From: Candidatus Aminicenantota bacterium
GTDB lineage: Bacteria; Acidobacteriota; Aminicenantia; Aminicenantales; UBA4085
NCBI GenBank assembly: GCA_026393865.1
Contig: JAPKZI010000072.1
Span: forward strand, 1-33,882
Length of the DNA: 33,882 nucleotides
Direction of reading: 5' to 3'
Below, piece after piece: positions 6,465 to 24,009 of the stretch. Below the pieces are notes generated by a model. That model made no database searches, was not told where the DNA came from, and was given only the letters and a program-made list of their open reading frames with translations. Within the stretch, counting starts at the first letter, position 1; the number at the start of each line of letters is the position of its first letter. The translations under genes and the position numbers were made by a program.

Positions 6465-6808
6465 GGACGTTACCTCCGCCGGCCGCCGAGCCTAGAGATC
6501 TCAGCCGCCTCTTTAAAATCAAAATGGGACGCAATGGTTTTTAGAGTCAAGGGACGAGCCTTCGGCTCGCCACTCGCCCGTGGCTTGTATCCACGGGCGA
6601 GTACGGCGGAAGTGGGCCCCCGGGCAAAGCCCGGAGCCCCGGCCGCCGTCGAGAAGCCTCTCGCCCGGCTTTTCCCTCGTTCAACCTGAGGATATGAATC
6701 CCCGCTCCATTATATGCGAAATCCGGAAAAATAGGGATACCCTGGCCGCAACTGGGTCGTCTGTCGCCGAAATAAAAACGAAATGAAGGGGAGGAGCGAA
6801 GAATCGCC
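6465..6808. other. Intergenic region carrying one copy of the 104-bp hairpin repeat
   Basis: This 344-bp gap lies between the methyltransferase start and the stop of the cysteate-synthase-like gene. About a third of it is the repeat at 6546-6649. The remainder (6465-6545 and 6650-6808) shows no gene, terminator or clear promoter that I can support. Confidence 0.5.
6546..6649 (+). repeat. 104-bp three-hairpin dispersed repeat, copy 1
   Basis: This copy is the same length as 8569-8672, lies in the same orientation, and differs at only 6 positions. It can fold into three consecutive hairpins: CGAGCC/GGCTCG with loop TTC (about 6555-6569); a 12-bp stem ACTCGCCCGTGG/CCACGGGCGAGT with a 7-nt loop (about 6571-6601); and CCGGGC/GCCCGG with loop AAA (about 6620-6634). 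It is not coding. It resembles REP/MITE-type or other structured dispersed elements; no associated transposase is next to it. Confidence 0.85.
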
Positions 6809-8568: not shown

Positions 8569-8672
8569 GTCAAGGGACGAGCCTTCGGCTCGCCACTCGC
8601 CCGTGGCTTATATCTACGGGCGAGTACGGCGGAAGTAGACCCCCGGGTAAAGCCCGGGGCCCCGGCCGCCGT
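8569..8672 (+). repeat. 104-bp three-hairpin dispersed repeat, copy 2
   Basis: This is the direct repeat of 6546-6649, with 6 substitutions and no indel. In the central hairpin the one stem change turns a G-C pair into G-U, and in the third hairpin C to T again leaves a G-U pair while A to G adds pairing that lengthens the stem to 8 bp. The stems are thus kept while sequence drifts. It lies just beyond the 3' end of the GH13 gene and upstream of the sigma-like gene. Confidence 0.85.
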
Positions 8673-8723: not shown

Positions 8724-11700
8724 CTAATTGATCAAGGCCGCTTTGAGCTTTGCCAATTGATACCCGGACCGCGCCTCGGCCTCGGACAGGCTTTTAATGA
8801 CCTCAAACGCGTCGGCGATGGCGGCCGGGACGTCGCCGGCCGGCATGGCCGGGTCCGCGGTGAGGTCTACGACCGCGACGGCCATCAGCCACCACAGCAG
8901 CTTCTCGAACGCTTCCTTATTGAAGTAAGCGATGCCTTGATATTCATTGACCTGCAGAAGCTGCCTGGCATCGTCGTCGCCCAACAGGGCTTCGGCCGTA
9001 TGAAGGGGGCGCTTCTTCGGGGCAACGTCTGTCCGGTGCCAATGTTGAAGCGTCGTCAGCGCCTTGATCGCGGTGGCGGCCTGTTCCGATGCGGCGCCGT
9101 CGATTCCCATCTCGCGAAGCGTGGCCATTAAAAGAGGAGCCAACCGCCAGTCATCGATGCGCCGACGGCCCAAGGATCGGACTCCGGCCCACCCGAGCAA
9201 CGAGGCCCAGGCCAGGCGGACTTCGATCGGCGGCGCCGCCGTCGATCCGTCCTTGTCGCCCACCGGCAGGGAGCTTTCATCCCGCTTCTCCGCCCGCAGC
9301 CCCGAAAGCAGATAGCGGACCGCCGTCCTGTATTTCACGGATCTGGGCCGCGGAAACCGGCCGGCGACGATGGGGAGGTGAAGGACGGCCTCGAAATCGC
9401 GCCGCATCGCCGTCGGTTCGATCGGTTCCTCAGCCGCCTCCGGCAGATCCTGAAGGCCGCGCAGAATGCGGAGAGACTTCTCGACAACCTCATCGCCGGG
9501 CTTTGGATTCAACGGCGCGGCTGGATCCAAGACCCGGTTCTCCAGCAGCCATTGGAAGAAGCCGGCGTTGACAAGCTCTTTAAGCGGAGCCAGGACCGGC
9601 CGCAAAAAGACGTCGCGCGCCGCCTCTTCGATGTTGGGCAGTCCGCCCCCCCTCAAGTCGTCCGCCAATCTGGCGTAGCGCTTGGCTCCATCATCCCGGA
9701 CTTCTCGAAAGTCCATGTAAACACGATAGTTATACGCGCCGAGCTCGACGTAAAGACCCTCCCGGCAGAGGTCGCGGCTGTTGCGGAGGTATTCCAGGCC
9801 GATCGTCTGATCCTTGAACACCACCCACAACTCCGGGTCGTCGTGCAGCCGCAGGCCGTCTCTCAGGTCTTTCCGGACCATCGTCTTTTCCTCGCCAAAC
9901 CCTGTTTTGACGGCGAAGGCCGCCGAGGTTCGGATCCAGCCGCGCGTGTCCGCGTATTTATTGTGGTAGACGACGAGCGCCCGCTCGTCGCCGCGGCCGT
10001 TCGAATAGGCGAAGACGTTCTCGTCGACGCGGCCGTCGGGCCGGTACAGATCGTAAAGGAGGAACTGGTCGACACCCGAGAAGAGGTGGCGTTTGTGGAA
10101 TAGCGGGACGATCTCGCGCTCGTGCCGTTCGACGAACCAGGGCTTCGGCTGTTCGTCGTGGTACGCCCGGCGATACTCCATGCCGTACTTCTCGGCGAAA
10201 CCTTCCACCTGCCCGTGACCGACCATCGGCAGGCCGGGCAGCGTGGCCAGCATTGTGCACACCCCGAAGTATTTGTCGCCGTCGCCGAACTGCTCGATCG
10301 CCGTCCGCTCGTCCGGATTGTTCATGAAGTTCACGTAGCGCTTCAACACTTCCGGATCAAACTCCAGGGTGGCCTTCATCACCCCGCGGTATTTGGCGTT
10401 GTCTTCGTCCCGGAGCATGTTCATGAAGGCGCTGTTGTACACGCGATGCATGCCCAGGGTGCGGACGAAGTATCCTTCCATCAGCCAGAACGCTTCGGCC
10501 AGAAGAAGAGTGTCGGGCGCCTCGGCCGCCACCCGATCGACCACGTCGCGCCAGAACTCGACGGGGATCGCCGCGTCGAACGCGTCCCGGGTCAGACCGT
10601 GCTCGGCGCGCGACGGGATCGCCCCGCCCGTCCCCGGTTCGGGGAACCATAACCGCTGATAATGCCTCTTGGCCAGGGTCATGGCCGCGTCGAAGCGGAT
10701 CACAGGGAAATCGCGGGCCACGCGGAGGATCGTCCGGATGACCGCCTCGCGGACCTCGGCCTTGAGGAAATCCAGCTGGGCAGTGTCGTTCCACGGATAG
10801 CTCGTGCCGTCGTTGCCGTGGTAGATGTATTTGACCGCGCCCGTCCATTTGTCGAAGCGCTTAAAAACCACGGCCGCGTCGGCCCGGTCATAGTAGCGGT
10901 TCTCGATCTGGATGCCGACGCGGGCGTCCCAGGACAGGTCCGGCCCGTCGAAAGCGTAGGCCGGAAACGGCGGCCGGTCAAGCCCGATGAACCAGTCGGG
11001 ATGCTCGATCACCCAGCGGGAATCGATGCCCATGTGGTTCGGGACCATATCGCTGGCCAGCCGGATGCCGCGCCGGCGGGCCCGGCCCTTGAGGTCCTGA
11101 AGGGCCGCCTCCCCGCCCAGGTCCTCGGCGATCATATAGTCAAAGAGCGAGTAAGCGGAAGCGACGGCCTCGGGATTGCCCATCATCTGCTTGATGCGCC
11201 GCGAGGCCTGGCTGCGCTCCCACAAGCCGATCAACCACAACCCCGTGAAGCCGCGACGGCGAAGCCGATCGAGCTCTTCGTCGGGGATCTGGTCGAGCCG
11301 GGAAATCGGCCGCCGATATTCCTTCGACAGTTGATCGAGCCAGACATACGTGCTCTTCGCGATCAAGACGATGTTCGGCATCCAATCGAGATCGGGACTG
11401 TATCGCTCAGGTTCCGGATCCGGAGCGCGCCGGCCCGAACCGCCCGCATGCGGGCCGAACAAGGCCAGCGAAGCGGCCTGCGCTTCGGGGCCGAAGACCG
11501 GCGGCCGGGCCGGCCCGGCGCCGGTGAAGACCGCTTTCTCCTCCTCCTGGATGAAATCGAGGCCGCGCCAGACCCGGGCGGCGAGCGGGCCCAAGACCGG
11601 GCCCCAGCGCTCGCGGATGAATTCGAGCTGCGCCGCCAGGGAATCGGGGGCGGCCAGGGCGGGGGCGCGGAGGAGATCGATCAGGTTTTGGTCATCGGGG

Positions 11701-12278
11701 CCGAAACGAGGCTGCTCGGCGAAGAATCCGCCCAAGCCCGTCATTATTTCAGGATAGGCCGTTTCCGTCCTGAGCGGCTCGTCGTCGAACAGTTCCCGGA
11801 ACGCCCCGAAGGCCGGATTCAAGTTGGCCAGCCAGACCATCAGCATTTCTTCGAGGGCGGTCTGCCGGTGGGTCAGGCCGCCCGTCTCGCCGGCCAGGAA
11901 GTCCTCGACGGTCAGCTTGTTTTTATACACGGCGACTGGAGGGAACTCGTCGAGGAAGCGGAGCAGCGTCGTCTCGACGGCCTCCGGCCCGATCCGGGCC
12001 GTCAGCCAGTCGAGCGCCTCCTGCATCACCCGCGGGTTCTTCCTTTCGCGATAAACGCGCAGGACGGCGTGCTGCAGTTCATCGATCAAGCCCAGGGCGT
12101 TGATCTGTCCGGCCCGGATCGCCCGCTCCGGCGGGCGTTTGGCGTTGATCTTTTGAGCGAACACGCGCGCCGCGACGAAGTCGGCGAAAATGACGTTGCC
12201 GTCGAAGGCGAACAGGGAGTCCTCGAAACCATAGGCGTCGCGGGCCCGGCGTGAAACGTGGAATTCGAAGAGGGCCAT
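8724..12278 (-). CDS. Large GH13 alpha-amylase-family protein (1184 aa)
   Basis: The central TIM barrel carries recognisable GH13 regions. Region I is SDMVPNHMG (Asp410-His415), region II is VIRFDAAMTL with the probable nucleophile Asp530, and region III is LLLAEAFWLM with acid/base Glu595. Region IV is FMNNPDERTA, keeping transition-state stabiliser Asp656 but replacing the usual N-H-D histidine. An extension of about 290 residues with no motif I can name precedes the barrel, and about 450 residues follow it. No signal peptide is seen, so it is probably cytoplasmic. It starts 7 bp after the stop of the glucan phosphorylase gene, so the pair forms an operon acting on alpha-glucan or glycogen. 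Whether it hydrolyses, debranches or transfers glucan cannot be decided from sequence. Confidence 0.8.
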   Translation of the reverse strand: MALFEFHVSRRARDAYGFEDSLFAFDGNVIFADFVAARVFAQKINAKRPPERAIRAGQINALGLIDELQHAVLRVYRERKNPRVMQEALDWLTARIGPEAVETTLLRFLDEFPPVAVYKNKLTVEDFLAGETGGLTHRQTALEEMLMVWLANLNPAFGAFRELFDDEPLRTETAYPEIMTGLGGFFAEQPRFGPDDQNLIDLLRAPALAAPDSLAAQLEFIRERWGPVLGPLAARVWRGLDFIQEEEKAVFTGAGPARPPVFGPEAQAASLALFGPHAGGSGRRAPDPEPERYSPDLDWMPNIVLIAKSTYVWLDQLSKEYRRPISRLDQIPDEELDRLRRRGFTGLWLIGLWERSQASRRIKQMMGNPEAVASAYSLFDYMIAEDLGGEAALQDLKGRARRRGIRLASDMVPNHMGIDSRWVIEHPDWFIGLDRPPFPAYAFDGPDLSWDARVGIQIENRYYDRADAAVVFKRFDKWTGAVKYIYHGNDGTSYPWNDTAQLDFLKAEVREAVIRTILRVARDFPVIRFDAAMTLAKRHYQRLWFPEPGTGGAIPSRAEHGLTRDAFDAAIPVEFWRDVVDRVAAEAPDTLLLAEAFWLMEGYFVRTLGMHRVYNSAFMNMLRDEDNAKYRGVMKATLEFDPEVLKRYVNFMNNPDERTAIEQFGDGDKYFGVCTMLATLPGLPMVGHGQVEGFAEKYGMEYRRAYHDEQPKPWFVERHEREIVPLFHKRHLFSGVDQFLLYDLYRPDGRVDENVFAYSNGRGDERALVVYHNKYADTRGWIRTSAAFAVKTGFGEEKTMVRKDLRDGLRLHDDPELWVVFKDQTIGLEYLRNSRDLCREGLYVELGAYNYRVYMDFREVRDDGAKRYARLADDLRGGGLPNIEEAARDVFLRPVLAPLKELVNAGFFQWLLENRVLDPAAPLNPKPGDEVVEKSLRILRGLQDLPEAAEEPIEPTAMRRDFEAVLHLPIVAGRFPRPRSVKYRTAVRYLLSGLRAEKRDESSLPVGDKDGSTAAPPIEVRLAWASLLGWAGVRSLGRRRIDDWRLAPLLMATLREMGIDGAASEQAATAIKALTTLQHWHRTDVAPKKRPLHTAEALLGDDDARQLLQVNEYQGIAYFNKEAFEKLLWWLMAVAVVDLTADPAMPAGDVPAAIADAFEVIKSLSEAEARSGYQLAKLKAALIN

Positions 12279-12285
12279 GAGATCT

Positions 12286-14043
12286 TCAGTCTTTGACGAC
12301 GGCGTCCTCGAACCTCATTCCGTAAGCCCGTTCGACGTACTCGCGGACCATCCTGTGGGTGTTGAAATAGGCGGCGTTCTTAATGGCGCCTTTCATCACT
12401 CTTGCCCACTCGTCCGGGTCGGCATAGGCCGGCCGGACATCGTTCTTGAGGCGGCGGCAGAAGCTCTCGAAATCGGCCGCGTCCGAGCCGGGGTTGTTCA
12501 GCTCGTCGTCACGAGGCTCTTCCCCGATCGACCAGCCCCCCTGCCTTTCGCCGCCCCCCTCTTTGGGGACCTCGTCCCACCAGCCGTCGATGGTCGAGAA
12601 GCTCGGGACACCGTTATGCGCCGCTTTCATGCCGCTCGTGCCGCTCGCCTCCCAAGGCCGGCGGGGCAGGTTGAGCCAGACGTCCGCCCCCGCGGCGAGG
12701 AGGAGGCCCTTGTTCATCTCGTAGTTCGGCAGGAAGACGACCTTGAGCCGGTCCTTGAGCTTCTCGGCGTTCTTCAGCACGTCGGTGATGACGCCCTTGC
12801 CCGGTTCATCCTTGGGATGGGCTTTCCCCGAGAAGATGAATTGGACCTGCCCGCCGCCGCTCGCTTCGACCAGCCTGTCCAGGTCGGAGAAGATGAGATT
12901 TCCTCTTTTATAGGTCGCGAACCTTCGGGCGAAACCGACGGTGAGCTTGTCCTCGTCCAAAATCTCGCCCGTGCTCTTTTTGACGTAATCCAGTAGGTTC
13001 CGCTTGGCGACCTTGTGCGCCTGGAGGATCACCTCATCGGAGATCCTATCGACCACCCCCAAGAGGGAGGGATCCGCCCGCCAGTTCTTTTGATAATGAA
13101 AGCCGTTGAAGTACTCGTCGTAGAGCTTCTTGAAGACCTTGCTGGTCCACGTCCTGGAGTGGACGCCGTTCGTGATGCTGTCGATGGCGTAGCCGGGGAA
13201 CATGCCCCGGGAGACGATCCCGTGCCGGCGGGCGACGGCGTTGGCGTAGCGGCTCAGATTGAGGGCGAGCCGGGTCATGTTCAGGCAGTCCCGTCCGCCC
13301 AGGGCCCGCAAATCGACCCCGTCGACAAAGCGGCCGAGCATGCCCTGGACCTTCCCGTAATCGAACATGTCGTGCCCCGCCTCAACCGGCGTGTGGGTCG
13401 TGAAGACGGTCCGGGACCTGGCCCCTTCATATCCGTATCTCTTCAATAGTTCCAAGGGAGCGAACCCGGCGTGCCCCTCGTTCAAGTGATAGGTCCGGGG
13501 GAGCGAGATCTCGCCGTTCTCGGCGAGAAGATGGAGCATCTTGATCCCGCCGATCCCCAGGACTTGTTCCTGGGCGATTCGCCAATAGTTCTGGTCGTTC
13601 ACGCCTTTCTTGTAGAGCTGGTCCGTGATCTCGTCGTCCCAGGGATGGCCGGCGTTGCCTCGGGTGAAAAGGAAGTAGTGCGGCTGGGGGAAGTTGGTGT
13701 TCCCGATGTAATACATCCGCGCGCAGCCCACCGTGACTTCCCGTCCTTCGATCTCGATCGTCACGGTATAGGGGAGCTCGGTCATATATTCGATCGGGTC
13801 GAGCCGGTTGTATTCCTCCACCTGTCTCATGTTGACGATCTTCTGGTCGAAGTAGCCGACATTGTAGAGGAGGGTGACGGCCGAGATCGGCAGTCTGAGG
13901 TCGGCGGCCGATTTCAGGAAATCCCCGGCCAGAACGCCGAGGCCTCCGGAGTAGGTCTTCAATTCCGGATAGATGGCGACCTCCATGGTGAAGTAGGCCG
14001 CCAGAATATCTCGATGTCTCACTTGGTCAAACCTCTCGCGCAA
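12286..14043 (-). CDS. glgP: Alpha-glucan phosphorylase (short GlgP type)
   Basis: The enzyme phosphorolyses alpha-1,4-glucan (glycogen or maltodextrin) to glucose-1-phosphate. The 585-residue protein has the N-terminal YSGGLGVLAGDFLKSAADL block, HLNEGHAGFAPLEL, the ribose/phosphate region FARRFATYKR, and the PLP-lysine block EASGTSGMKAAHNGV with Lys473. This is the short family (TIGR02094-like) rather than the 800-residue GlgP/MalP form. The written start is a TTG at 14043; a GTG at 14022 with AGAGG 9 nt upstream is equally plausible and would give a 578-residue protein starting near RHRDILAAYFTME. The GH13 gene follows 7 bp downstream. Upstream is a divergent control region with a perfect palindrome. 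Confidence 0.9.
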   Translation of the reverse strand: MRERFDQVRHRDILAAYFTMEVAIYPELKTYSGGLGVLAGDFLKSAADLRLPISAVTLLYNVGYFDQKIVNMRQVEEYNRLDPIEYMTELPYTVTIEIEGREVTVGCARMYYIGNTNFPQPHYFLFTRGNAGHPWDDEITDQLYKKGVNDQNYWRIAQEQVLGIGGIKMLHLLAENGEISLPRTYHLNEGHAGFAPLELLKRYGYEGARSRTVFTTHTPVEAGHDMFDYGKVQGMLGRFVDGVDLRALGGRDCLNMTRLALNLSRYANAVARRHGIVSRGMFPGYAIDSITNGVHSRTWTSKVFKKLYDEYFNGFHYQKNWRADPSLLGVVDRISDEVILQAHKVAKRNLLDYVKKSTGEILDEDKLTVGFARRFATYKRGNLIFSDLDRLVEASGGGQVQFIFSGKAHPKDEPGKGVITDVLKNAEKLKDRLKVVFLPNYEMNKGLLLAAGADVWLNLPRRPWEASGTSGMKAAHNGVPSFSTIDGWWDEVPKEGGGERQGGWSIGEEPRDDELNNPGSDAADFESFCRRLKNDVRPAYADPDEWARVMKGAIKNAAYFNTHRMVREYVERAYGMRFEDAVVKD

Positions 14044-14094: not shown

Positions 14095-14149
14095 GGGGAC
14101 GACGCACTCTGTCCCTATTTTTAAAATAGGGACAGAGTGCGTCGTCCCC
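14095..14149. repeat. Perfect 55-bp palindrome (27-bp arms, 1-nt centre)
   Basis: The left arm 14095-14121 is the exact reverse complement of 14123-14149, with one T between them. The outer ends begin GGGGACGACGCAC and the centre is A/T-rich. It lies between the divergently transcribed glgP gene and the redox-sensor operon. Its size, perfect symmetry and GGGGAC ends suggest a REP/MITE-like non-autonomous element; a very strong hairpin or regulatory cruciform is the alternative. A 9-nt direct repeat GGTCAGGCG follows at 14150 and 14161. Confidence 0.85.
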
Positions 14150-14178
14150 GGTCAGGCGAAGGTCAGGCGGCCGGGCAT

Positions 14179-14208
14179 TTGACGCGGCGGAAGATGTTGC
14201 CGTATACT
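14179..14208 (+). promoter_or_regulatory. Sigma-70 promoter for the redox-sensor operon
   Basis: TTGACG (14179-14184), an 18-nt spacer, TATACT (14203-14208). Transcription would begin near 14215, leaving a leader of about 64 nt before the ATG at 14279. It probably drives 14279 through 21279, since no comparable promoter was noticed between those closely spaced genes. Confidence 0.55.
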
Positions 14209-14278: not shown

Positions 14279-14974
14279 ATGGAGAAGAAAACGGCGTCGT
14301 TCATCCGCGTCTATTGCCCCGAGCTGATGGCCATGATCAATCCAGGGGAATGGACGGACTGCCCCTATTTTCGGGGCCAGAAACTGGATGTGTCCGATTC
14401 CGAGGAGGCGCTCAAACAGATCTTCCGCTGCCACGTCCAATGCGATTCCAAGATCCAATATCAATATTACGAGGACGGCCAGCTGGTGGAGCGGGTGGAA
14501 GAGTCCGTCGAGGACCAGGACAGCCTCCGCCGGATCCTTTCCCTCGTCATGAAATCCTCAAAGGCCGCCGCCAAGAAGAAGGAAAAGAAGGTCCTCATCG
14601 TCGATGACGACATCGATTTCCTGGAGATGCATTCGGCCGTCCTGACCCACCGCGGCTACCACGTCATCACCGCCCAGAGCACCAAGGAATGCCTGGAGAA
14701 ACTGGACAAGGCCAAGCCCGACGTCGTGGTGCTCGACGTCATGATGGAGCAGTTCGATTCGGGCTTCAAGCTGAGCAAGACGATCAAGGAGAAACACCAC
14801 GACCTCCCGGTGATGCTGCTGACCTCCATCGGGGCCCAGACCGGCCTGGAATTCTCCTCCAATCAGGACATCCTGAAGGCGACGGGCGCGGACATTCTTC
14901 TGGACAAGCCGGTCAGCCCCAAGGTCTTCATCGACGAGATTGAGAAGCTGACCGCTCCCAAGAAAAAGAGCTGA
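14279..14974 (+). CDS. Response regulator with Cys-containing N-terminal domain
   Basis: The 231-residue protein has a C-terminal receiver domain (about residues 100-228): acidic pocket VLIVDDD, phospho-acceptor Asp153 (VVVLDVMME), the LLTS Thr/Ser position and LLDKPVSP with the conserved Lys. The first 95 residues form a separate domain with several cysteines (VYCPEL, TDCPYF, FRCHVQC) that I cannot assign. Between the Ser of LLTS and the Lys there is a longer-than-usual segment with TGLEFSSNQDILK, matched at the same place by TGYRFSLQEDGYWMK in the regulator at 17043. There is no DNA-binding output domain. AGGGAG lies 7 nt before the ATG. It is followed by the hydrogenase-like kinase after 15 bp. 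Confidence 0.82.
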   Translation: MEKKTASFIRVYCPELMAMINPGEWTDCPYFRGQKLDVSDSEEALKQIFRCHVQCDSKIQYQYYEDGQLVERVEESVEDQDSLRRILSLVMKSSKAAAKKKEKKVLIVDDDIDFLEMHSAVLTHRGYHVITAQSTKECLEKLDKAKPDVVVLDVMMEQFDSGFKLSKTIKEKHHDLPVMLLTSIGAQTGLEFSSNQDILKATGADILLDKPVSPKVFIDEIEKLTAPKKKS

Positions 14975-14989
14975 GCGCTCTTCATCGCC

Positions 14990-17074
14990 ATGGACCTCCT
15001 GAGCATCTCCGAGACGAAATGCCGCCAATGTTACCGGTGCGTCCGGGAGTGTCCGACCAACGCCCTCAAGATCGACCACGGCAAGGTCAAGCGGATCTGG
15101 AGCCGTTGCATCCTCTGCGGCATTTGTTATCAATATTGTCCGCACGACGCCGTGAGCGCCCAAACCGGGGTCAAGCGCGTCCAGGAGCTTTTGGATTCCG
15201 GCGAAAAGGTCATCGTCTGCCTGGACCCGACTTTTCCGGCGGTTTTGGACAAGGGAACCCCCGGGCAACTGGTGACCTCGCTTAAAAAACTGGGCTTCCA
15301 CGAGGTCTGGGAAGCCGCCGTCGGCGGGGACCCGGTCACCAGGGCTTATGACGCCTGGATCCGCAAGGATAAGGAAGCCTCCTGGATCTCGTCGTTCTGC
15401 CCTTCGCTCGTCTATTACGTCGAGAAGTTCGTCCCCCAGCTCAAAGACCAGTTCGTGCCGATCGTTTCGCCTATGATCGCCTGCGGCATGATCGCCAAAC
15501 ACCTCCACGGCGCCGGGACGAAAGTTATCTATGTCGGCCCCTGCATCTCCAGGATCTGGGAGCGGATGAGCCGCTACGGCAAGGAATACATCGATTACGT
15601 CCTGATCTACCACGACATCAGCAACATGCTGAAAGCGAAGGGCATCGAGCGGGAGAAGCAGGAGCCCTCGGAGTTCGACGGGCCGCCGAGCGGCCTGGGG
15701 CGGATCCTGAGCTTCTCCGGCGGCATGAGCAAAGGAGTGGGGTTCGAACAGGACCTCCTCAACATGGACCACGTGGTCGAAGCCGGGGCCGACGAAGCCA
15801 TCCGGGCGCTGAAACAGTTCCAGGAAGGGAAGATCCGGTCGAAGTTCCTCGATCTTCTGTTCTGTAAGGGGTGCATCAACGGGCCCGCCACGGATAAAAA
15901 CATTTCGGGTCCCAGCCGAAAACAGATCGTCGTGGATTTCATCAAGGCTCAGCAGAAAAAGCGCCCGGCGAACGGGGCCGCCGATATCCGAAAGCTGCCG
16001 TTGAACTTGAAGCGGAGCTTCGCCGCGCGGGACGTGGCCATGCCCGATCCCAAGGAAGCCGAGATCCAGGCCGTCTTGACCCAGTTGGGAAAAACGTACC
16101 CCGACCGGAACCAGGACTGCGGGGCATGCGGTTACGGTTCGTGCCGGGAGAAAGCCAAGGCCGTCGTCCAGGGCCTGGCCGAGATGGAGATGTGCCCCCA
16201 CTATCTCCTCGAACGGCTTCAGGGGCTGTATTCGAGCCTCGAAAAATCCCACTTCCAATTGAAAAGCTCCCACGAGGAGTTGGAGCGCGCTCAGCAGCAG
16301 CTGATCCAGACGGAAAAAATGGCCTCCCTCGGTCAGCTGGCCGCCGGCGTGGCCCATGAACTGAACAACCCCATCGGGACGATCATGATGTTCAGCCGGA
16401 TCCTGCAGGAGGAATTACGCGATAACGAGAAGTGGCAGAACGATATCACCCTGGTCGTCCAGGAGGCGGACCGGGCGGCCAAGATCATCAAGGACCTCCT
16501 GAGCTTCGCCAAGGAAACCAAGGTCAAACCGGGACTGGTGAACATCAACACGGTGATGAAAGAGGCCTTGTCCCTCCTGATCAAGCAGGCCATCTTTCAC
16601 AACGTCGAGGTCCGGACGGAACTCGACCCGAAGCTTCCCTCGACCTTCGCCGACCCCGACCTGCTCAAGCAGGTCTTTTTGAACATCATTCTGAACGGGG
16701 TCCAGGCCATGGACGGCAAAGGGACTCTGACCATCCAAAGCCGGAAGCTCGACAAGGGAAAGAAGATCGAGATCCGCATCCAGGACACGGGCAAGGGCAT
16801 CCCCGAAGAGAATCTGCCCCGGCTTTTCGATCCGTTTTTCACCACGAAGGAAAAAGGCACCGGTCTGGGCCTGGCCCTCGTTTACAGCCTCGTCTCAAAA
16901 CATCAAGGCACGGTGACCGCCGAGAGCCGGATGGGACACGGCGCCGCTTTCATCATCACCCTGCCCGTCCTCGGTCAAAAAGAATGGCAAAATAAGGATC
17001 ACCCCATCACCGACCTGAAAAACGCTCCCAAAGGGAAAGAGCATGACAGTCACGGCAAAGATCTTATTGGTTGA
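14990..17074 (+). CDS. Ferredoxin / [FeFe]-hydrogenase-like / 4Fe-4S sensor histidine kinase
   Basis: The 694-residue fusion reads, in order: two 4Fe-4S ferredoxin motifs (Cys11-14-17-21 and Cys40-43-46-50); a [FeFe]-hydrogenase large-subunit-like domain (about 70-300) with Cys137 (SSFCPSL), Cys165 (MIACGM), Cys185 (VGPCISR) and Cys292/Cys295 (FCKGCING); a further 4Fe-4S motif (Cys377, Cys380, Cys385, Cys402); a coiled coil; and a histidine kinase core with His456 (GVAHELNNP), N box LNIILNGVQAM, DTGKGIPEE and GTGLGLAL. There are no membrane helices, so it is a cytoplasmic redox or H2 sensor. The last H-cluster motif is CxxC instead of CxxxC, suggesting sensing rather than catalysis. It resembles the HydS-type kinases linked to [FeFe] hydrogenase clusters. 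Its 3' end overlaps the next regulator by 32 bp. Confidence 0.88.
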   Translation: MDLLSISETKCRQCYRCVRECPTNALKIDHGKVKRIWSRCILCGICYQYCPHDAVSAQTGVKRVQELLDSGEKVIVCLDPTFPAVLDKGTPGQLVTSLKKLGFHEVWEAAVGGDPVTRAYDAWIRKDKEASWISSFCPSLVYYVEKFVPQLKDQFVPIVSPMIACGMIAKHLHGAGTKVIYVGPCISRIWERMSRYGKEYIDYVLIYHDISNMLKAKGIEREKQEPSEFDGPPSGLGRILSFSGGMSKGVGFEQDLLNMDHVVEAGADEAIRALKQFQEGKIRSKFLDLLFCKGCINGPATDKNISGPSRKQIVVDFIKAQQKKRPANGAADIRKLPLNLKRSFAARDVAMPDPKEAEIQAVLTQLGKTYPDRNQDCGACGYGSCREKAKAVVQGLAEMEMCPHYLLERLQGLYSSLEKSHFQLKSSHEELERAQQQLIQTEKMASLGQLAAGVAHELNNPIGTIMMFSRILQEELRDNEKWQNDITLVVQEADRAAKIIKDLLSFAKETKVKPGLVNINTVMKEALSLLIKQAIFHNVEVRTELDPKLPSTFADPDLLKQVFLNIILNGVQAMDGKGTLTIQSRKLDKGKKIEIRIQDTGKGIPEENLPRLFDPFFTTKEKGTGLGLALVYSLVSKHQGTVTAESRMGHGAAFIITLPVLGQKEWQNKDHPITDLKNAPKGKEHDSHGKDLIG

Positions 17075-17450
17075 CGACGACCCGGATTTCCTGGACATGC
17101 ACAAGGCCATCCTGGCCAACCACGGCTACGAGGTGATCACGGCGACGAGCGGCGGGGAAGGGATGGAACGCGTCCGGACTGATATGCCGGACGCGATCAT
17201 CCTCGATCTGATGATGGAAAAGCACGACGCCGGATTTTCATTCAGCCGGCAGATCAAGATGGACCCGCTTTTTAAAAGGATCCCGATCCTCATGGTGACC
17301 TCCGTCGCCGAGGCGACCGGCTACCGCTTTTCCCTCCAGGAGGACGGATACTGGATGAAGACCGACGACTTTCTGGACAAGCCGGTCAAGCCGGAGGTGC
17401 TTCTGGAGCGGGTGGAGCGCATGTTGAAGAAATCGAGGGAGGCCCCGTGA
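17043..17450 (+). CDS. Single-domain response regulator
   Basis: This 135-residue receiver domain stands alone. The acidic pocket is LLVDDD, the phospho-acceptor Asp55 (IILDLMME), the switch residue is in MVTS, and Lys is in FLDKPVKP. It closely resembles the receiver half of the regulator at 14279, including the extended TGYRFSLQEDGYWMK segment before the final strand. The two probably arose by duplication and may compete for, or relay, phosphate from the hydrogenase-like kinase. Its ATG lies inside the 3' end of the kinase gene with GGGAAAGAG upstream, indicating translational coupling. Confidence 0.88.
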   Translation: MTVTAKILLVDDDPDFLDMHKAILANHGYEVITATSGGEGMERVRTDMPDAIILDLMMEKHDAGFSFSRQIKMDPLFKRIPILMVTSVAEATGYRFSLQEDGYWMKTDDFLDKPVKPEVLLERVERMLKKSREAP

Positions 17451-17512
17451 ACCATCCCGCCGAGATTCTCGCCATCAACGACAAGATGGGAAAAGCCAAG
17501 GAGAGCGAGTGA
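17447..17512 (+). pseudogene. 21-codon REC-like remnant or micro-ORF, coupled at both ends
   Basis: A GTG overlaps the TGA of the preceding regulator (GTGA), and this frame ends in a TGA overlapping the GTG of the next kinase. The 21-residue product contains PAEILAINDKMG, which aligns with PAEILVVDDEMG at the start of the downstream receiver domain (identical at P, A, E, I, L, D, M and G). It therefore looks like the truncated first strand and acidic pocket of a duplicated receiver gene. It may survive because it couples translation of its neighbours, or it may simply be a relic. A functional peptide is possible but unsupported. Confidence 0.6.
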
Positions 17513-18996
17513 CCAAGCCCGCTGAAATTCTCGTCGTTGATGACGAGATGGGGATCCGCGAAGGCTGCAAACGGGCTTTGAGCCGGCTGGGATACGCCGT
17601 CGATCTGGCCGAGGACGGCGCGGTCGGGTTCCGAAAGGTCCAGGAAAAACAATACGATCTCATCCTCATGGACCTGATGATGCCCGGGATCGGCGGCCTG
17701 GACCTGATCAAGAAGGTCCACGACATCGACCCCGAGATCATCATTGTCGTCATCACCGGCTACGCGACGATCGAAACGGCCGTCGAGGCGACCAAGCGGG
17801 GCGCCTACGATTATCTACCGAAACCCTTCGCCCCCGAAACGCTGGCCGTCCTGGTCAAGCGGGGATTGGAGAAACGCGAGCTCCGGCTCGAAGCGCAGCG
17901 GCTGCACCATGAACGGGATCAGCGCCTCCTTGAGCTGGCCGGCGAAAAAAGCCGGTTGCGGACCATCATCGGCTGCATGGCGGACGGCGTCTTGGTCACG
18001 AACCTCGAGCGCCAGCTCGTCCTCTGGAACGCCGCCGCCGTGAAAATGCTGAGGCTCAGCGGCACGGACGAGCCCGGCCGGCCGCTGTCGCATTACGTCA
18101 AAGCCCCGTCCATCAACGAAGCCCTCCAGAACGTCCTCTCCTCCAAGGACGCCGGCCTGGCCATGATCAGCCAGGAGATCCGCCTCGAAGATCCGGAGCT
18201 CGTTCTGATGGCCCAGATGGCCCCCGTGCGCGACGAGGCCGGAACGCTTCTCGGCGCCGTCACGGTCCTGCGCGACATCACCAAACTCAAGGAGATCGAA
18301 AAGATCAAATCGCAGTTCGTTTCCATGGTCGCCCACGAGCTCCGTTCGCCGCTGGCGGCGATCGAAGGCTGGCTCGACGTCGTTCTTTCGGGGGCCGCCG
18401 GCGATGATGAGCGGAAGAAAGAGGCTTGGCTCGAGCGGGCCAAGGAGCGGGCCCATTCCCTCCTGGCCCTCGTCAACGACCTTTTAGAGATCAGCAAGAT
18501 CGAGGCGGGCAAGGTCGCCCTCAAGATGGAATCCGTCCAGGTGGCCGACATCATCCGAAAACTGGTCGATTTCCTCAAGCCGGAGGCCGACCGGAAGGCC
18601 CTCTCCTTCACCATCCAGATGCCCGAAGCGCTGCCGACCGTCCAGGCCGACGTTCAGGACATGGAGAAGCTCTTCACCAACCTGATCAGCAACGCCATCA
18701 AATATAACGTGGACAAGGGCTCCGTGACGATCGAGGCCACGGTCGACGCTCAATACGTCGGATTCCACGTCAGGGACACGGGGATCGGCATGGCCCCGGA
18801 ACACCTGCCCCGGATCTTCGACGATTTCTTCCGCATCGAGGACAAGCGGACGAGCAAGATCAGCGGCACGGGACTAGGCCTGACGATCGCCAAGAAGATC
18901 GTCGACTCGCATTTCGGACATCTCGAGGTGAAGAGCCGACCGGATCAAGGCAGCACCTTCTCCGTTTACCTGCCCTACCAGAAACGAACGAAATAG
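17509..18996 (+). CDS. Hybrid sensor kinase: receiver - PAS - HisKA - HATPase
   Basis: The 495-residue cytoplasmic protein starts with a receiver domain (about 5-120; VVDDE, Asp55 in LILMDLMMPG, Lys in YLPKPF). A helical linker and a PAS domain follow (about 150-265; IIGCMADGVLVTNLERQLV, ending in AVTVLRDITKLKEIE). Next is a HisKA domain with His276 (SMVAHELRSPLAAIEG) and an HATPase (LISNAIKYN, DTGIGMAPEHL, GTGLGLTIA). The REC-first layout suggests it receives phosphate from, or is modulated by, the hydrogenase-like kinase upstream, then signals onward. No DNA-binding output is encoded here. The start is GTG 17509 with GGAGAG upstream, overlapping the TGA of the micro-ORF. Confidence 0.87.
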   Translation: MTKPAEILVVDDEMGIREGCKRALSRLGYAVDLAEDGAVGFRKVQEKQYDLILMDLMMPGIGGLDLIKKVHDIDPEIIIVVITGYATIETAVEATKRGAYDYLPKPFAPETLAVLVKRGLEKRELRLEAQRLHHERDQRLLELAGEKSRLRTIIGCMADGVLVTNLERQLVLWNAAAVKMLRLSGTDEPGRPLSHYVKAPSINEALQNVLSSKDAGLAMISQEIRLEDPELVLMAQMAPVRDEAGTLLGAVTVLRDITKLKEIEKIKSQFVSMVAHELRSPLAAIEGWLDVVLSGAAGDDERKKEAWLERAKERAHSLLALVNDLLEISKIEAGKVALKMESVQVADIIRKLVDFLKPEADRKALSFTIQMPEALPTVQADVQDMEKLFTNLISNAIKYNVDKGSVTIEATVDAQYVGFHVRDTGIGMAPEHLPRIFDDFFRIEDKRTSKISGTGLGLTIAKKIVDSHFGHLEVKSRPDQGSTFSVYLPYQKRTK

Positions 18997-19014
18997 CGGC
19001 GGAAAGGCACCCCC

Positions 19015-21279
19015 ATGAATTCCAGCATCACTCCCCAGGTCAACGAGATCCTCAGGAAGGAACGGCTCGCTCCGTCCATCACTCTCTTCGAGGTCCATTC
19101 GCCTCTCGTCGCGAACGCGGTCCGGGCCGGTCAATTCGTCGTGGTCCGGGCCGACGACTACGCGGAGCGGATCCCCTTGACCGTCGTCGACCGCGATCCC
19201 GACCGCCGGTCCATCACCCTCATCATTCAGGCCGTCGGGGTCTCAACCCGGAAAATGGAAAAGCTGAACGTCGGAGAGGCGTTCTTAGACGTCGTCGGAC
19301 CCTTGGGAAGGCCGACGGAGATCAAAAAAACGGGGACCGTCGTCTGTATCGGCGGAGGCGTCGGAGTCGCTCCCGTCTATCCCATCACCAAAGCCTTCAA
19401 AGAGGCCGGGAACCGCGTCCTTTCGATCATCGGGGCCAAAACCAAGGAAATGCTGATCCTGGAGCCGGAGATGCGGGCGATAAGCGATGATCTCTTCATC
19501 ACCACGGACGACGGCAGCGCCGGCCGTCACGGGTTTGTCACGAACGAGCTCCAGCGGCTCCTCGACGAGAAGGTGCCGATCGATGAAGTCGTCGCCATCG
19601 GCCCCGGGATTATGATGAAGGCCGTTTCCGAACTGACCCGCAAGCATGGGATACCGACCCTGGTCAGCCTCAACGCGCTCATGGTCGACGGGACGGGGAT
19701 GTGCGGATGCTGCCGGATCACCGTCGGGAACAAAACGAAGTTCGTCTGTGTGGACGGCCCGGAGTTCGACGGCCACCAGGTGGATTTCGCCGAGCTCCTT
19801 AAGCGGGCGGACATGTACCGGCGCGAGGAGCATCGGGCCCTATGGGACCACGAATGCCGGCTCCAGGAGGCCGAGAAGAAACTGAAACGGGCCAACAAGC
19901 TGGAACCCATGCCCAAACAGGATCCCAAACTCAGGATCCGGAACTTCGACGAGGTCGCCCTGGGTTACACCCGGGACTTGGCCATGCGAGAAGCCTCCCG
20001 CTGCCTGGACTGCAAGAAATCGCCCTGCGTCGCCGGCTGCCCCGTCGATATCGACATCCCCGCCTTCATCAAGCTCATCCGGAACGGGGATTTCATAGGG
20101 GCCATCCACAAGATCAAGGAGAAGAACAGCCTGCCGGCCATCTGCGGCCGCGTCTGCCCGCAGGAGGACCAATGCGAGGTCGTCTGCGTTCTAGCCAAGA
20201 AAGGACAGCCGGTCGCCATCGGCCGCTTGGAGCGGTTCGTGGCCGATCACGAATTCCAGCAGGGCGACGTCCGCCTGCCCCACCCGGCCCCGTCGACGGG
20301 GAAGAAAGTGGCCGTTATCGGGGCCGGCCCGGCGGGCTTGACCGCGGCCAGCGAGCTCATCAAATTGGGACACGCCGTCACCGTCTTCGAAGCCCTCCAC
20401 AAAACGGGCGGAGTGCTCGTCTACGGCATTCCCGAGTTCCGCCTGCCCAAGTGGATCGTTCAGCGCGAAAGCGAATACATCGGGAAACTGGGCGCCGAGA
20501 TGAAGCTCAGCCACGTGGCCGGAAAATCCTTCACCATCGACGACCTGTTCCATCAGGGCTACGAGGCCGTCTTCATCGGGACGGGGGCCGGCCTGCCGTA
20601 CTTCATGGAGATCCCCGGCGAGAACCTCAACGGCGTATATTCCGCCAACGAGTTCCTCACCCGGGCGAACCTCATGAAAGCCTATCTCTTTCCCGAATAC
20701 AGCACGCCCATCCATCTCGGACGGAAGATCGCCGTCGTCGGCGGCGGGAACGTGGCCATGGACGCGGCCCGGACCTCTCTCCGCCTGGGCGCGGAGAACG
20801 TTTACCTCATCTACCGCCGGGCTCGGGAGCAGATGCCTGCCCGGGCGGAAGAGATCGAGAACGCCTTCGAGGAAGGCGTCCAACCCCATCTGTTGACCAA
20901 TCCCATCCGCATCCTGGGGAACGAGCGGGGCTGGGTCAAAGGGATCGAATGCATCAAAATGGAATTGGGCGAACCGGACGCCTCCGGGAGGAGAAAACCC
21001 ATTCCCGTCCAAGGGTCCGAACACGTCACCGATGTGGACATGGTCATCATGGCCATCGGGCAGGGACCCAATCCCCTGCTGACCTCGACGACCCCGGACC
21101 TGACCCTGACCAAATGGGGCAATATCGTCGCCGACCTGGAAACGGGCAAGACCTCCAAAAAAGGCGTGTTCGCCGGCGGAGATATCGTCACCGGCGGAGC
21201 GACGGTTATCCTGGCCATGGGCGCGGGCAAGAAAGCGGCCAAGGCGATCGACGCCTACCTGAAGGACGGGGTCTGGTAA
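19015..21279 (+). CDS. NfnA-NfnB fusion: NADH-dependent reduced ferredoxin:NADP+ oxidoreductase-like flavoprotein
   Basis: The 754-residue protein joins two subunits that are often separate. Residues about 1-285 are a ferredoxin-reductase/PyrK-like FAD-NAD module with IGGGVGVAPVYPI and a [2Fe-2S] site (Cys230, Cys232, Cys233, Cys245). Residues about 300-754 are a GltD-like module: two [4Fe-4S] motifs (Cys330/333/338/342 and Cys377/381/387/391), FAD-binding VAVIGAGPAGLTAASEL, NADPH-binding VVGGGNVAMDAARTS and the closing GGDIVTGGATVILAMGAGKK. Such enzymes balance NADH, NADPH and ferredoxin, by electron bifurcation in NfnAB. Sulfide dehydrogenase (SudAB) is a close alternative. GGAAAGG precedes the ATG. 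It follows the kinase gene after 18 bp, so it is probably in the same operon and may be tied to what the sensors measure. Confidence 0.87.
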   Translation: MNSSITPQVNEILRKERLAPSITLFEVHSPLVANAVRAGQFVVVRADDYAERIPLTVVDRDPDRRSITLIIQAVGVSTRKMEKLNVGEAFLDVVGPLGRPTEIKKTGTVVCIGGGVGVAPVYPITKAFKEAGNRVLSIIGAKTKEMLILEPEMRAISDDLFITTDDGSAGRHGFVTNELQRLLDEKVPIDEVVAIGPGIMMKAVSELTRKHGIPTLVSLNALMVDGTGMCGCCRITVGNKTKFVCVDGPEFDGHQVDFAELLKRADMYRREEHRALWDHECRLQEAEKKLKRANKLEPMPKQDPKLRIRNFDEVALGYTRDLAMREASRCLDCKKSPCVAGCPVDIDIPAFIKLIRNGDFIGAIHKIKEKNSLPAICGRVCPQEDQCEVVCVLAKKGQPVAIGRLERFVADHEFQQGDVRLPHPAPSTGKKVAVIGAGPAGLTAASELIKLGHAVTVFEALHKTGGVLVYGIPEFRLPKWIVQRESEYIGKLGAEMKLSHVAGKSFTIDDLFHQGYEAVFIGTGAGLPYFMEIPGENLNGVYSANEFLTRANLMKAYLFPEYSTPIHLGRKIAVVGGGNVAMDAARTSLRLGAENVYLIYRRAREQMPARAEEIENAFEEGVQPHLLTNPIRILGNERGWVKGIECIKMELGEPDASGRRKPIPVQGSEHVTDVDMVIMAIGQGPNPLLTSTTPDLTLTKWGNIVADLETGKTSKKGVFAGGDIVTGGATVILAMGAGKKAAKAIDAYLKDGVW

Positions 21280-23003: not shown

Positions 23004-23548
23004 AAGAGAGAGATAGGAATCCAGTTGCGGAAGATCTCGGACGAAGTCGGTGAGGGACGAAGCCTTCTCCTTATGCGCGGAGCGTTTCGCTCCAAGAATC
23101 TCGATGAATTCCCAAACCTCACGGTCAAGAAGATCCCTAAGGCAGTTCTCAACCGATGTGAATGGGGCAAAGACGATAACAGTCTGGAGATTCAGAATTT
23201 CCCCATGAAAACGCCGGAAGAACAGAAGGAACCGGAAGTTTCCGCCGCCGCTCGGAAACCGCGCTTCGAGGAGGAAAGGCGGCTCGCCGTTCAACCCTCG
23301 AGGGACAAAATTTGCTTTTTCGCGCTCCGCGACATTCCTTCCTAAAAAGCTCGGAATCAATACCTTCCATCGCGTAAAGAGCCTTCAAAATCTAAAGACG
23401 AACGTGCTGCCCGTTGATAATTCCGGCTGCGAATCGGATCGACCGCGTAGACCTTCCGGATCAGGGCCGCCCAGCTCTTGGATGGGATGCGCTTCTCTTC
23501 CTCTGGAAGTTCTTCGGCGCTGAGGGTATAATAGAAGGGGAGGCGAAG
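23004..23548. other. Gene-poor region with only weak open frames
   Basis: No gene is supported over this 545 bp. A plus frame from a TTG at 23025 to 23345 encodes 106 charged residues with no recognisable family. The minus strand holds the transposase scrap listed at 23435-23518. A TATAAT hexamer at 23527-23532, without a good -35, precedes the DUF433 remnant. Confidence 0.4.
23435..23518 (-). pseudogene. IS91-type transposase fragment (C-terminal region)
   Basis: Read on the minus strand, this segment encodes EEEKRIPSKSWAALIRKVYA followed by VDP. That closely resembles the conserved C-terminal block of IS91/IS1294-type transposases, where a K-[ST]-W-x-x-L-I-x-[KR]-[IV]-Y-x-[VA]-D-P-L motif precedes a Cys-x-x-Cys zinc site. 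Similarity stops right after D-P and the expected cysteines are absent, so this is a dead fragment. Two N-terminal fragments of the same family lie at 24863 and 28622. Confidence 0.5.
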
Positions 23549-23725
23549 ATGACCAATCAGCAATTATTGGCCCGGATTGTTCTGGATCCCAAGGTTATGG
23601 TCGGAAAACCCGTCATTCGCGGAACACGGAGACGAAAGGAATGCGTTTTCTCGCTAAATATAGGTTTTGCGAAAAGGATATGGACATGGGTCAAAAGGAA
23701 AATATCCGAATCCAAAAAGAACTGA
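23549..23725 (+). pseudogene. Truncated DUF433-family (antitoxin-type) gene
   Basis: The first 27 codons encode the DUF433 opening, with LLARIVLDPKVMVGKPVIRG then TR, starting at an ATG with GGGGAGG upstream. In intact members this is followed by IP and a helix-turn-helix-like domain of about 50 residues. Here the frame instead runs through unrelated sequence to a stop at 23725. The gene is therefore cut about one third of the way in, and its former 3' part is replaced by the start of the nucleotidyltransferase region. Confidence 0.65.
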
Positions 23726-24009
23726 AAAAATTTAAGGCCGGGGTCTCGCGCGATTTTCCGGTCCAAAAGATGTATGTCTTCGGCTCGCGGGCACGAGGCA
23801 CGGCCGGGAAATTCGGCGATATCGACCTCCTCATCGTCAGTCCGAAGTTCAGGGGCCTGGATTTCATTCGTCGCGGCGCTCGTATGTACGATCATTGGGA
23901 AATCGATCATCCCGTGGATTTTCTCTGTTATTCACCCGAGGAATTTAAACGGATGAAGAATCGCGCGACCATCGTTCGCGAAGCCGTCCTTCACGGCATC
24001 GAAATCTAG
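23686..24009 (+). CDS. MNT-type minimal nucleotidyltransferase domain protein
   Basis: The 107-residue protein is a small Pol-beta-superfamily nucleotidyltransferase. The signature is FGSRARGTAGKFGDIDLLIV (G-S followed by D-x-D), with a third acidic position expected in HPVDFLCYS. Such proteins usually act as the antitoxin or AMPylating partner of a HEPN toxin, or in small-molecule modification. No HEPN gene is adjacent. I prefer ATG 23686, with AAGGA 7 nt upstream, over in-frame ATGs at 23680 and 23641 because the extra residues look like readthrough of the broken upstream gene. It overlaps the tail of the DUF433 remnant in a different frame. Confidence 0.75.
   Translation: MGQKENIRIQKELKKFKAGVSRDFPVQKMYVFGSRARGTAGKFGDIDLLIVSPKFRGLDFIRRGARMYDHWEIDHPVDFLCYSPEEFKRMKNRATIVREAVLHGIEI

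Follow-up and report, generated by a model that had tools for sequence, protein, structure and literature searches.

The electron-bifurcating transhydrogenase NfnAB balances the NADH, NADPH and ferredoxin of the cell. Sensor kinases built on an [FeFe]-hydrogenase scaffold are classified in group C of the hydrogenase database HydDB, where the entry for group C1 reads 'histidine kinase-linked (putative), undetermined role' (PMC5037454). In a 2024 study, H-cluster motifs could hardly be found in the C1 proteins of Hydrogenedentota, and their function was left open (PMC11406978). The sensory proteins TmHydS and TamHydS bear H-clusters when matured and do so without C299 (PMC8163306, PMC10055695); the Cx2Cx4Cx16C motif has been defined in the first of these works (PMC8163306). 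Here, we describe a five-gene unit of an uncultured anaerobic bacterium that places a kinase of this type beside a fused NfnAB. No description of an NfnAB-linked kinase unit was found in a collection of open-access papers that covers part of the literature.

Organization of the five-gene locus

The window, meaning the whole stretch of 33,882 nucleotides that was analysed, is one entire contig (G000:C141) of a Candidatus Aminicenantes genome (Acidobacteriota, 86% complete). Five open reading frames on the same strand encode the proteins P1 to P5 (Table 1), and their Pfam and NCBIfam domains agree with the functions named in an earlier note on this DNA. That note also described the genes as overlapping or separated by at most 18 bp. 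The description fits the P1-P2, P2-P3 and P4-P5 spacings (15, -32 and 18 bp), and it does not fit P3-P4, which lie 58 bp apart. No DNA-binding domain was detected in P1 to P5 with Pfam and NCBIfam, as the note had stated for the regulators, and this lack is conserved in the related loci.

Table 1 Features of the NfnAB-linked signalling locus in the window.
Feature	Coordinates	Strand	Basis and details
P1 response regulator	14279..14974	+	Pfam REC 105-221; ~95-aa N-terminal domain; phospho-Asp D153
P2 [FeFe]-hydrogenase-like histidine kinase	14990..17074	+	Pfam/NCBIfam domains, alignments
P3 stand-alone receiver	17043..17450	+	Pfam; phospho-Asp D55
P4 REC-PAS-HisKA-HATPase kinase	17509..18996	+	Pfam; kept in six full loci
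P5 fused NfnB-NfnA	19015..21279	+	NCBIfam NF009414/TIGR01316; PDB matches 4ylf, 5jca
Sigma-70-like promoter match TTGACG-18-TATACT	14179..14208	+	Consensus scan, 10/12; predicted only
26-bp near-perfect hairpin	14095..14150	.	RNA fold -53.5 kcal/mol, z -12.25
21-codon ORF in P3-P4 gap	17447..17512	+	Sequence reading, spacing table

A 21-codon ORF spans the gap between P3 and P4, with an overlap of 4 nt at either gene (GTGA/GTGA). Its sequence, NHPAEILAINDKMGKAKESE, is similar to the first part of the P4 receiver and has the look of a receiver that collapsed and was joined to a receiver tail. A longer counterpart is located at about 2503-2592 in the nearest relative (L006), the other full loci have none, and the ORF is probably a remnant. 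The sigma-70-like match is positioned 70 bp 5' of the first ATG; as the product of a consensus scan, it is not evidence of function. The hairpin sits between the operon and a divergent glycogen-phosphorylase-like gene. It has no Rfam match, and its arm sequence occurs in the assembled genome at this site only. The divergent region 5' of the operon (window 8724-14043, minus strand) holds this gene together with a very long alpha-amylase-like gene (1184 aa). On the other side, at window 23414-24009, a short DUF433-like ORF precedes a small, nucleotidyltransferase-like ORF (GSRARG...D.D). This pair, recognised by eye, might be of the toxin-antitoxin type or a remnant of one.

Conservation of the unit

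The N-terminal domain of P1 served as the marker for a distribution survey covering the Acidobacteriota; one contig scan gave two relatives. In a sample of 297 genomes of the phylum, the domain occurs only as part of this unit, in the genome of the window and in G064, a member of another class. Within the window's own class, 9 of 142 genomes give a strong match, and ten genera are represented when three weak hits are included. The carriers amount to 11 distinct genomes including L006 and L007, the identical loci of the L007 genome and G307 being counted once.

All five genes occur in the same order and on the same strand in six loci (G000, G341, G340, G302, G307/L007 and G064). Five further loci are partial, with P1-P4 (G337), P2-P5 (L006) or P1 and part of P2 up to the contig end (G338, G339 and G299). 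No related contig long enough to show the order departs from it, which rules out a chance juxtaposition of the five genes. The overlap of P2 and P3 measures 32 or 35 bp in all six full loci, and the flanking genes are unrelated and differ from genome to genome. For all genes compared (against L006, G338 or G341), dN/dS lies between 0.08 and 0.18, indicating purifying selection on all five. In the P2 tree, the NfnAB-linked kinases form one clade with a support of 100/100. The proposal that the five genes are one unit is therefore borne out by several families of the order and by a genome of another class. Of the two observations named beforehand as refuting it, neither was made: the order recurs beyond this genome, and NfnAB, far from being separate in relatives, is fused and directly downstream wherever the contig reaches. 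Some horizontal transfer would be compatible with the scattered distribution of the carriers, G064 among them.

L006 departs from this pattern in sequence, with an in-frame TAG stop at codon 253 of P2 (L006 46-2130). Its P4 gene (2589-4139) carries a 21-aa in-frame insertion, of which 46-49 bp are also found at window positions 6604-6652 and 8627-8672; the P4 frame thus seems to have taken up a small dispersed repeat.

A hydrogenase-like sensor kinase

P2 consists of two 4Fe4S domains, Fe_hyd_lg_C (E 2e-37), the FeS domain PF04060 and a HisKA/HATPase transmitter (Pfam/NCBIfam). The two [4Fe-4S] motifs comprise C11/14/17/21 and C40/43/46/50. By homology to PF02906, C137, C185, C292 and C295 are the four cubane cysteines of the H-domain, and all four are present in every NfnAB-linked copy that holds the site. 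The C-terminal Cx2Cx4Cx16C motif is present as well (C377/380/385/402). The transmitter is NtrB/ZraS-like with H456 as its HisKA phospho-acceptor, and in sequence readings and alignments the phospho-acceptor Asp and His residues and the ATPase motifs of the phosphorelay are intact. A plasmid search returned only Bacillota C3-type sensors of ~30% identity and unrelated kinases. An AlphaFold2 model of P2 from a two-row alignment reached a pLDDT of 35 and was not used.

The pocket of the H-domain is altered at two positions. F136 occupies the place of C299, and R188 that of K358, the lysine of PCxxK; both C299 and K358 are residues typical of the H-cluster pocket. Phe and Arg are found in all NfnAB-linked copies holding the site, whereas K358 is kept by all 17 of the hydrogenase-operon relatives examined and also by the group C proteins of the Bacillota Ruminococcus albus, Monoglobus and Acetoanaerobium. 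The sister clade (G022 and G035), which is likewise devoid of HydG, has Lys at this position in G022 and Asn in G035, and this variation fits a relaxed constraint on the pocket.

Synthesis of the [2Fe] subcluster requires a maturase. None of the 11 carrier genomes, one of which consists of a single contig, has HydG, and HydF does not exceed the cut-off in any of the four carriers tested. Some carriers are incomplete, yet it is improbable that HydG is missing in all 11 through incompleteness alone. Lacking HydG, P2 most likely bears Fe-S cubanes only. Among genomes with P2 relatives in a hydrogenase context, 16 of 18 have HydG over the cut-off. Across the class, 11 of 142 genomes do, none of them from the window's order. 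The absence is thus a feature of the whole order and not tied to this operon; it removes H2 sensing and does not itself explain the link to NfnAB. A missing C299 has no diagnostic value by itself, since TmHydS and TamHydS are also without it; on sequence grounds, the change at K358 together with the absent maturase is the stronger evidence. A connection to [FeFe] hydrogenases and H2, as anticipated in the earlier note, thus finds no support in the maturase counts or the pocket residues, and the six full loci contain no hydrogenase genes. A hydrogen reading of P2 is unlikely, and this hydrogenase-derived sensor has probably lost hydrogen binding. Its role as an Fe-S sensor is well supported; its target we infer.

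Receivers, second kinase and NfnAB

The N-terminal domain of P1 contains four cysteines (C13, C28, C51 and C55) that are invariant in 10 of 10 copies. It belongs to no Pfam family, the only matches of its profile are zinc-ribbon-like and fall short of significance (ribosomal L32, E 0.24), and nothing was found in viral contigs. In a structure model of P1, the receiver is good and the N-terminal domain has a pLDDT of mostly 55-70; the top fold-search matches are receivers only. We regard this four-cysteine region as a putative new domain that may bind a metal or a cluster. The alpha-1 face of the receiver reads DxDFLxMH in both P1 and P3 and differs in P4 (DDEMGIRE). This agreement suggests one kinase for P1 and P3, and P4 would be a second tier.

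P5 combines a DHODB-type Fe-S domain, Fer4_20 and Pyr_redox_2, and scores 1096.9 bits against NF009414 (cut-off 1103). It matches both NfnAB subunits of Thermotoga maritima (4ylf) and Pyrococcus furiosus (5jca) over their full length, and the matches take in the CPQExQCE motif region. By homology, P5 is an NfnAB transhydrogenase with predicted bifurcating activity. In every locus whose contig extends this far, the fused gene comes immediately after P4.

The genome of the window has two further nfnAB loci outside the unit, on contigs C67 and C167. Downstream of the C67 locus come DRTGG-like, HATPase and Fe-hydrogenase-like regulator genes, so that two of the three Nfn loci of this genome adjoin H-domain regulators. 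Three more H-domain proteins are encoded in DRTGG/HATPase/PHP-type cassettes of this HydG-less genome, on C67 (L077), C92 (L078) and C152 (L080). Those on C67 and C92 adjoin Nfn- or NuoF-GltD-type enzymes, and the C67 copy is split across two overlapping frames.

Possible signal and output of the unit

We give slightly more credence than doubt to a self-contained redox-control unit, in which an H-cluster-free kinase would signal through the receivers to NfnAB or to a distant regulator. P2 would have started out as a group C [FeFe]-hydrogenase sensor and would now hold Fe-S clusters only. It would take its electrons from reduced ferredoxin or an NAD(P)H-linked donor and report the low-potential redox state rather than H2. 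A plausible electron path leads from the ferredoxin-type clusters at the surface to the buried cubane, then to the cluster beside the transmitter and into the kinase. We postulate that P2 phosphorylates P1, P3 or both, and that P4 forms a second tier. The target would most likely be the co-encoded NfnAB. A phosphorylated receiver could dock on it directly, in the case of P1 by way of the four-cysteine domain, or control could be exerted on operon synthesis. The outcome would be a feedback between the ferredoxin/NADPH poise and NfnAB, which itself sets this poise. The two extra nfnAB loci of the genome and the in-frame stop in P2 of L006 speak against this explanation. Moreover, co-transcription with P1 to P4 is no proof that NfnAB is regulated; on sequence grounds, it may be the effector, the signal source or just a co-expressed partner.

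A narrower version, in which the former hydrogenase kinase is a pure ferredoxin-potential sensor and the four-cysteine receiver P1 docks on NfnAB for control at the protein level, appears to us doubtful. If true, the unit would work like a thermostat that adjusts flavin-based electron bifurcation post-translationally.

Alternatively, P2 and P4 could pass their signal to a response regulator whose gene lies elsewhere, such as an NtrC-type sigma-54 activator; NfnAB would then be a co-transcribed electron donor or just a co-regulated gene and no direct protein target. We consider this possible, if on balance unlikely, and a serious rival because the gene after the P2 homologue in the sister clade encodes an NtrC-type sigma-54 regulator. 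The type of the P2 transmitter, an NtrC-type regulator on another contig of the window's genome and the redox repressor Rex in the hydrogenase operons of relatives point in the same direction. However, the NfnAB-linked loci and their immediate neighbourhoods are all devoid of such a regulator, and all of these loci keep two dedicated stand-alone receivers.

Fe-S clusters are generally oxygen-labile, and P2 might instead sense Fe-S stress (O2, NO or iron supply), cluster loss being the signal and NfnAB being induced to restore reductant. The four-cysteine domain of P1 would suit such a role, but the exposed pairs of ferredoxin-type clusters and the ferredoxin enzyme as partner better fit electron exchange, and no copy of the unit includes oxygen-defence genes; we give this explanation little weight. 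Least probable by far is a working group C sensory hydrogenase with an H-cluster and an operon that responds to H2, for although the domain plan, the cubane cysteines and the Cx2Cx4Cx16C motif are those of group C sensors (PMC8163306) and true sensory hydrogenases are often without C299 (PMC10055695), the missing HydG (11 of 11 carriers) and HydF (4 of 4 tested) and the Arg in place of the Lys of related group C proteins argue against it.

The unit joins two open questions, namely the control of flavin-based electron bifurcation and, as raised by PMC11406978, what C1 'hydrogenases' without H-cluster motifs sense. It offers a conserved pairing of an apparently H-cluster-free sensor kinase with NfnAB, for which five proteins suffice for tests. 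Such kinases should not be annotated as hydrogen sensors, nor should surveys of Aminicenantes metagenomes count them among the hydrogenases.

Comparison with known systems

The hydrogenase operons of Acidobacteriota (L041-L056) have features of their own. Classic HydA proteins carry the motif TSCCP. In 13 of 13 HydA proteins examined from these operons, the motif reads TSCSP, with Ser at the C300 cubane ligand position. A Rex-type repressor (PF06971 and PF02629) is encoded 5' of two of them (L043 2104-2802 and L048 2972-3607), and none was seen in the NfnAB-linked unit.

With the putative sensory [FeFe] hydrogenases of HydDB groups C1 and C3 (HydS), including BfuT of Bfu subtype V, P2 shares the two [4Fe-4S] motifs, the H-domain with its four cubane cysteines, the Cx2Cx4Cx16C motif, the kinase and an adjoining redox enzyme. 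It differs from them in the replacement of C299 by Phe and of K358 by Arg, in having no PAS domain and in the absence of HydG. Unlike BfuT-type regulators, P2 has no Bfu/HydABC hydrogenase beside it in the six full loci; the enzyme encoded with it is NfnAB. Acidobacteriota hydrogenase operons such as L046, L048 and L054 contain the same types of REC, FeFe-kinase, REC and REC-kinase genes in a similar order, and they too adjoin an enzyme with an NfnA/GltD-type domain. In these operons, however, the enzyme is HydA with a NuoF-GltD fusion, HydG is present and the P1 N-terminal domain is absent; their kinases are 33-37% identical to P2 (18 genomes, operon context where visible). P5 resembles NfnAB of T. 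maritima and P. furiosus (4ylf, 5jca) in both full-length subunits and in the aligned [4Fe-4S] motif regions of NfnA, and is unlike them in being a fused NfnB-NfnA encoded within a signalling operon.
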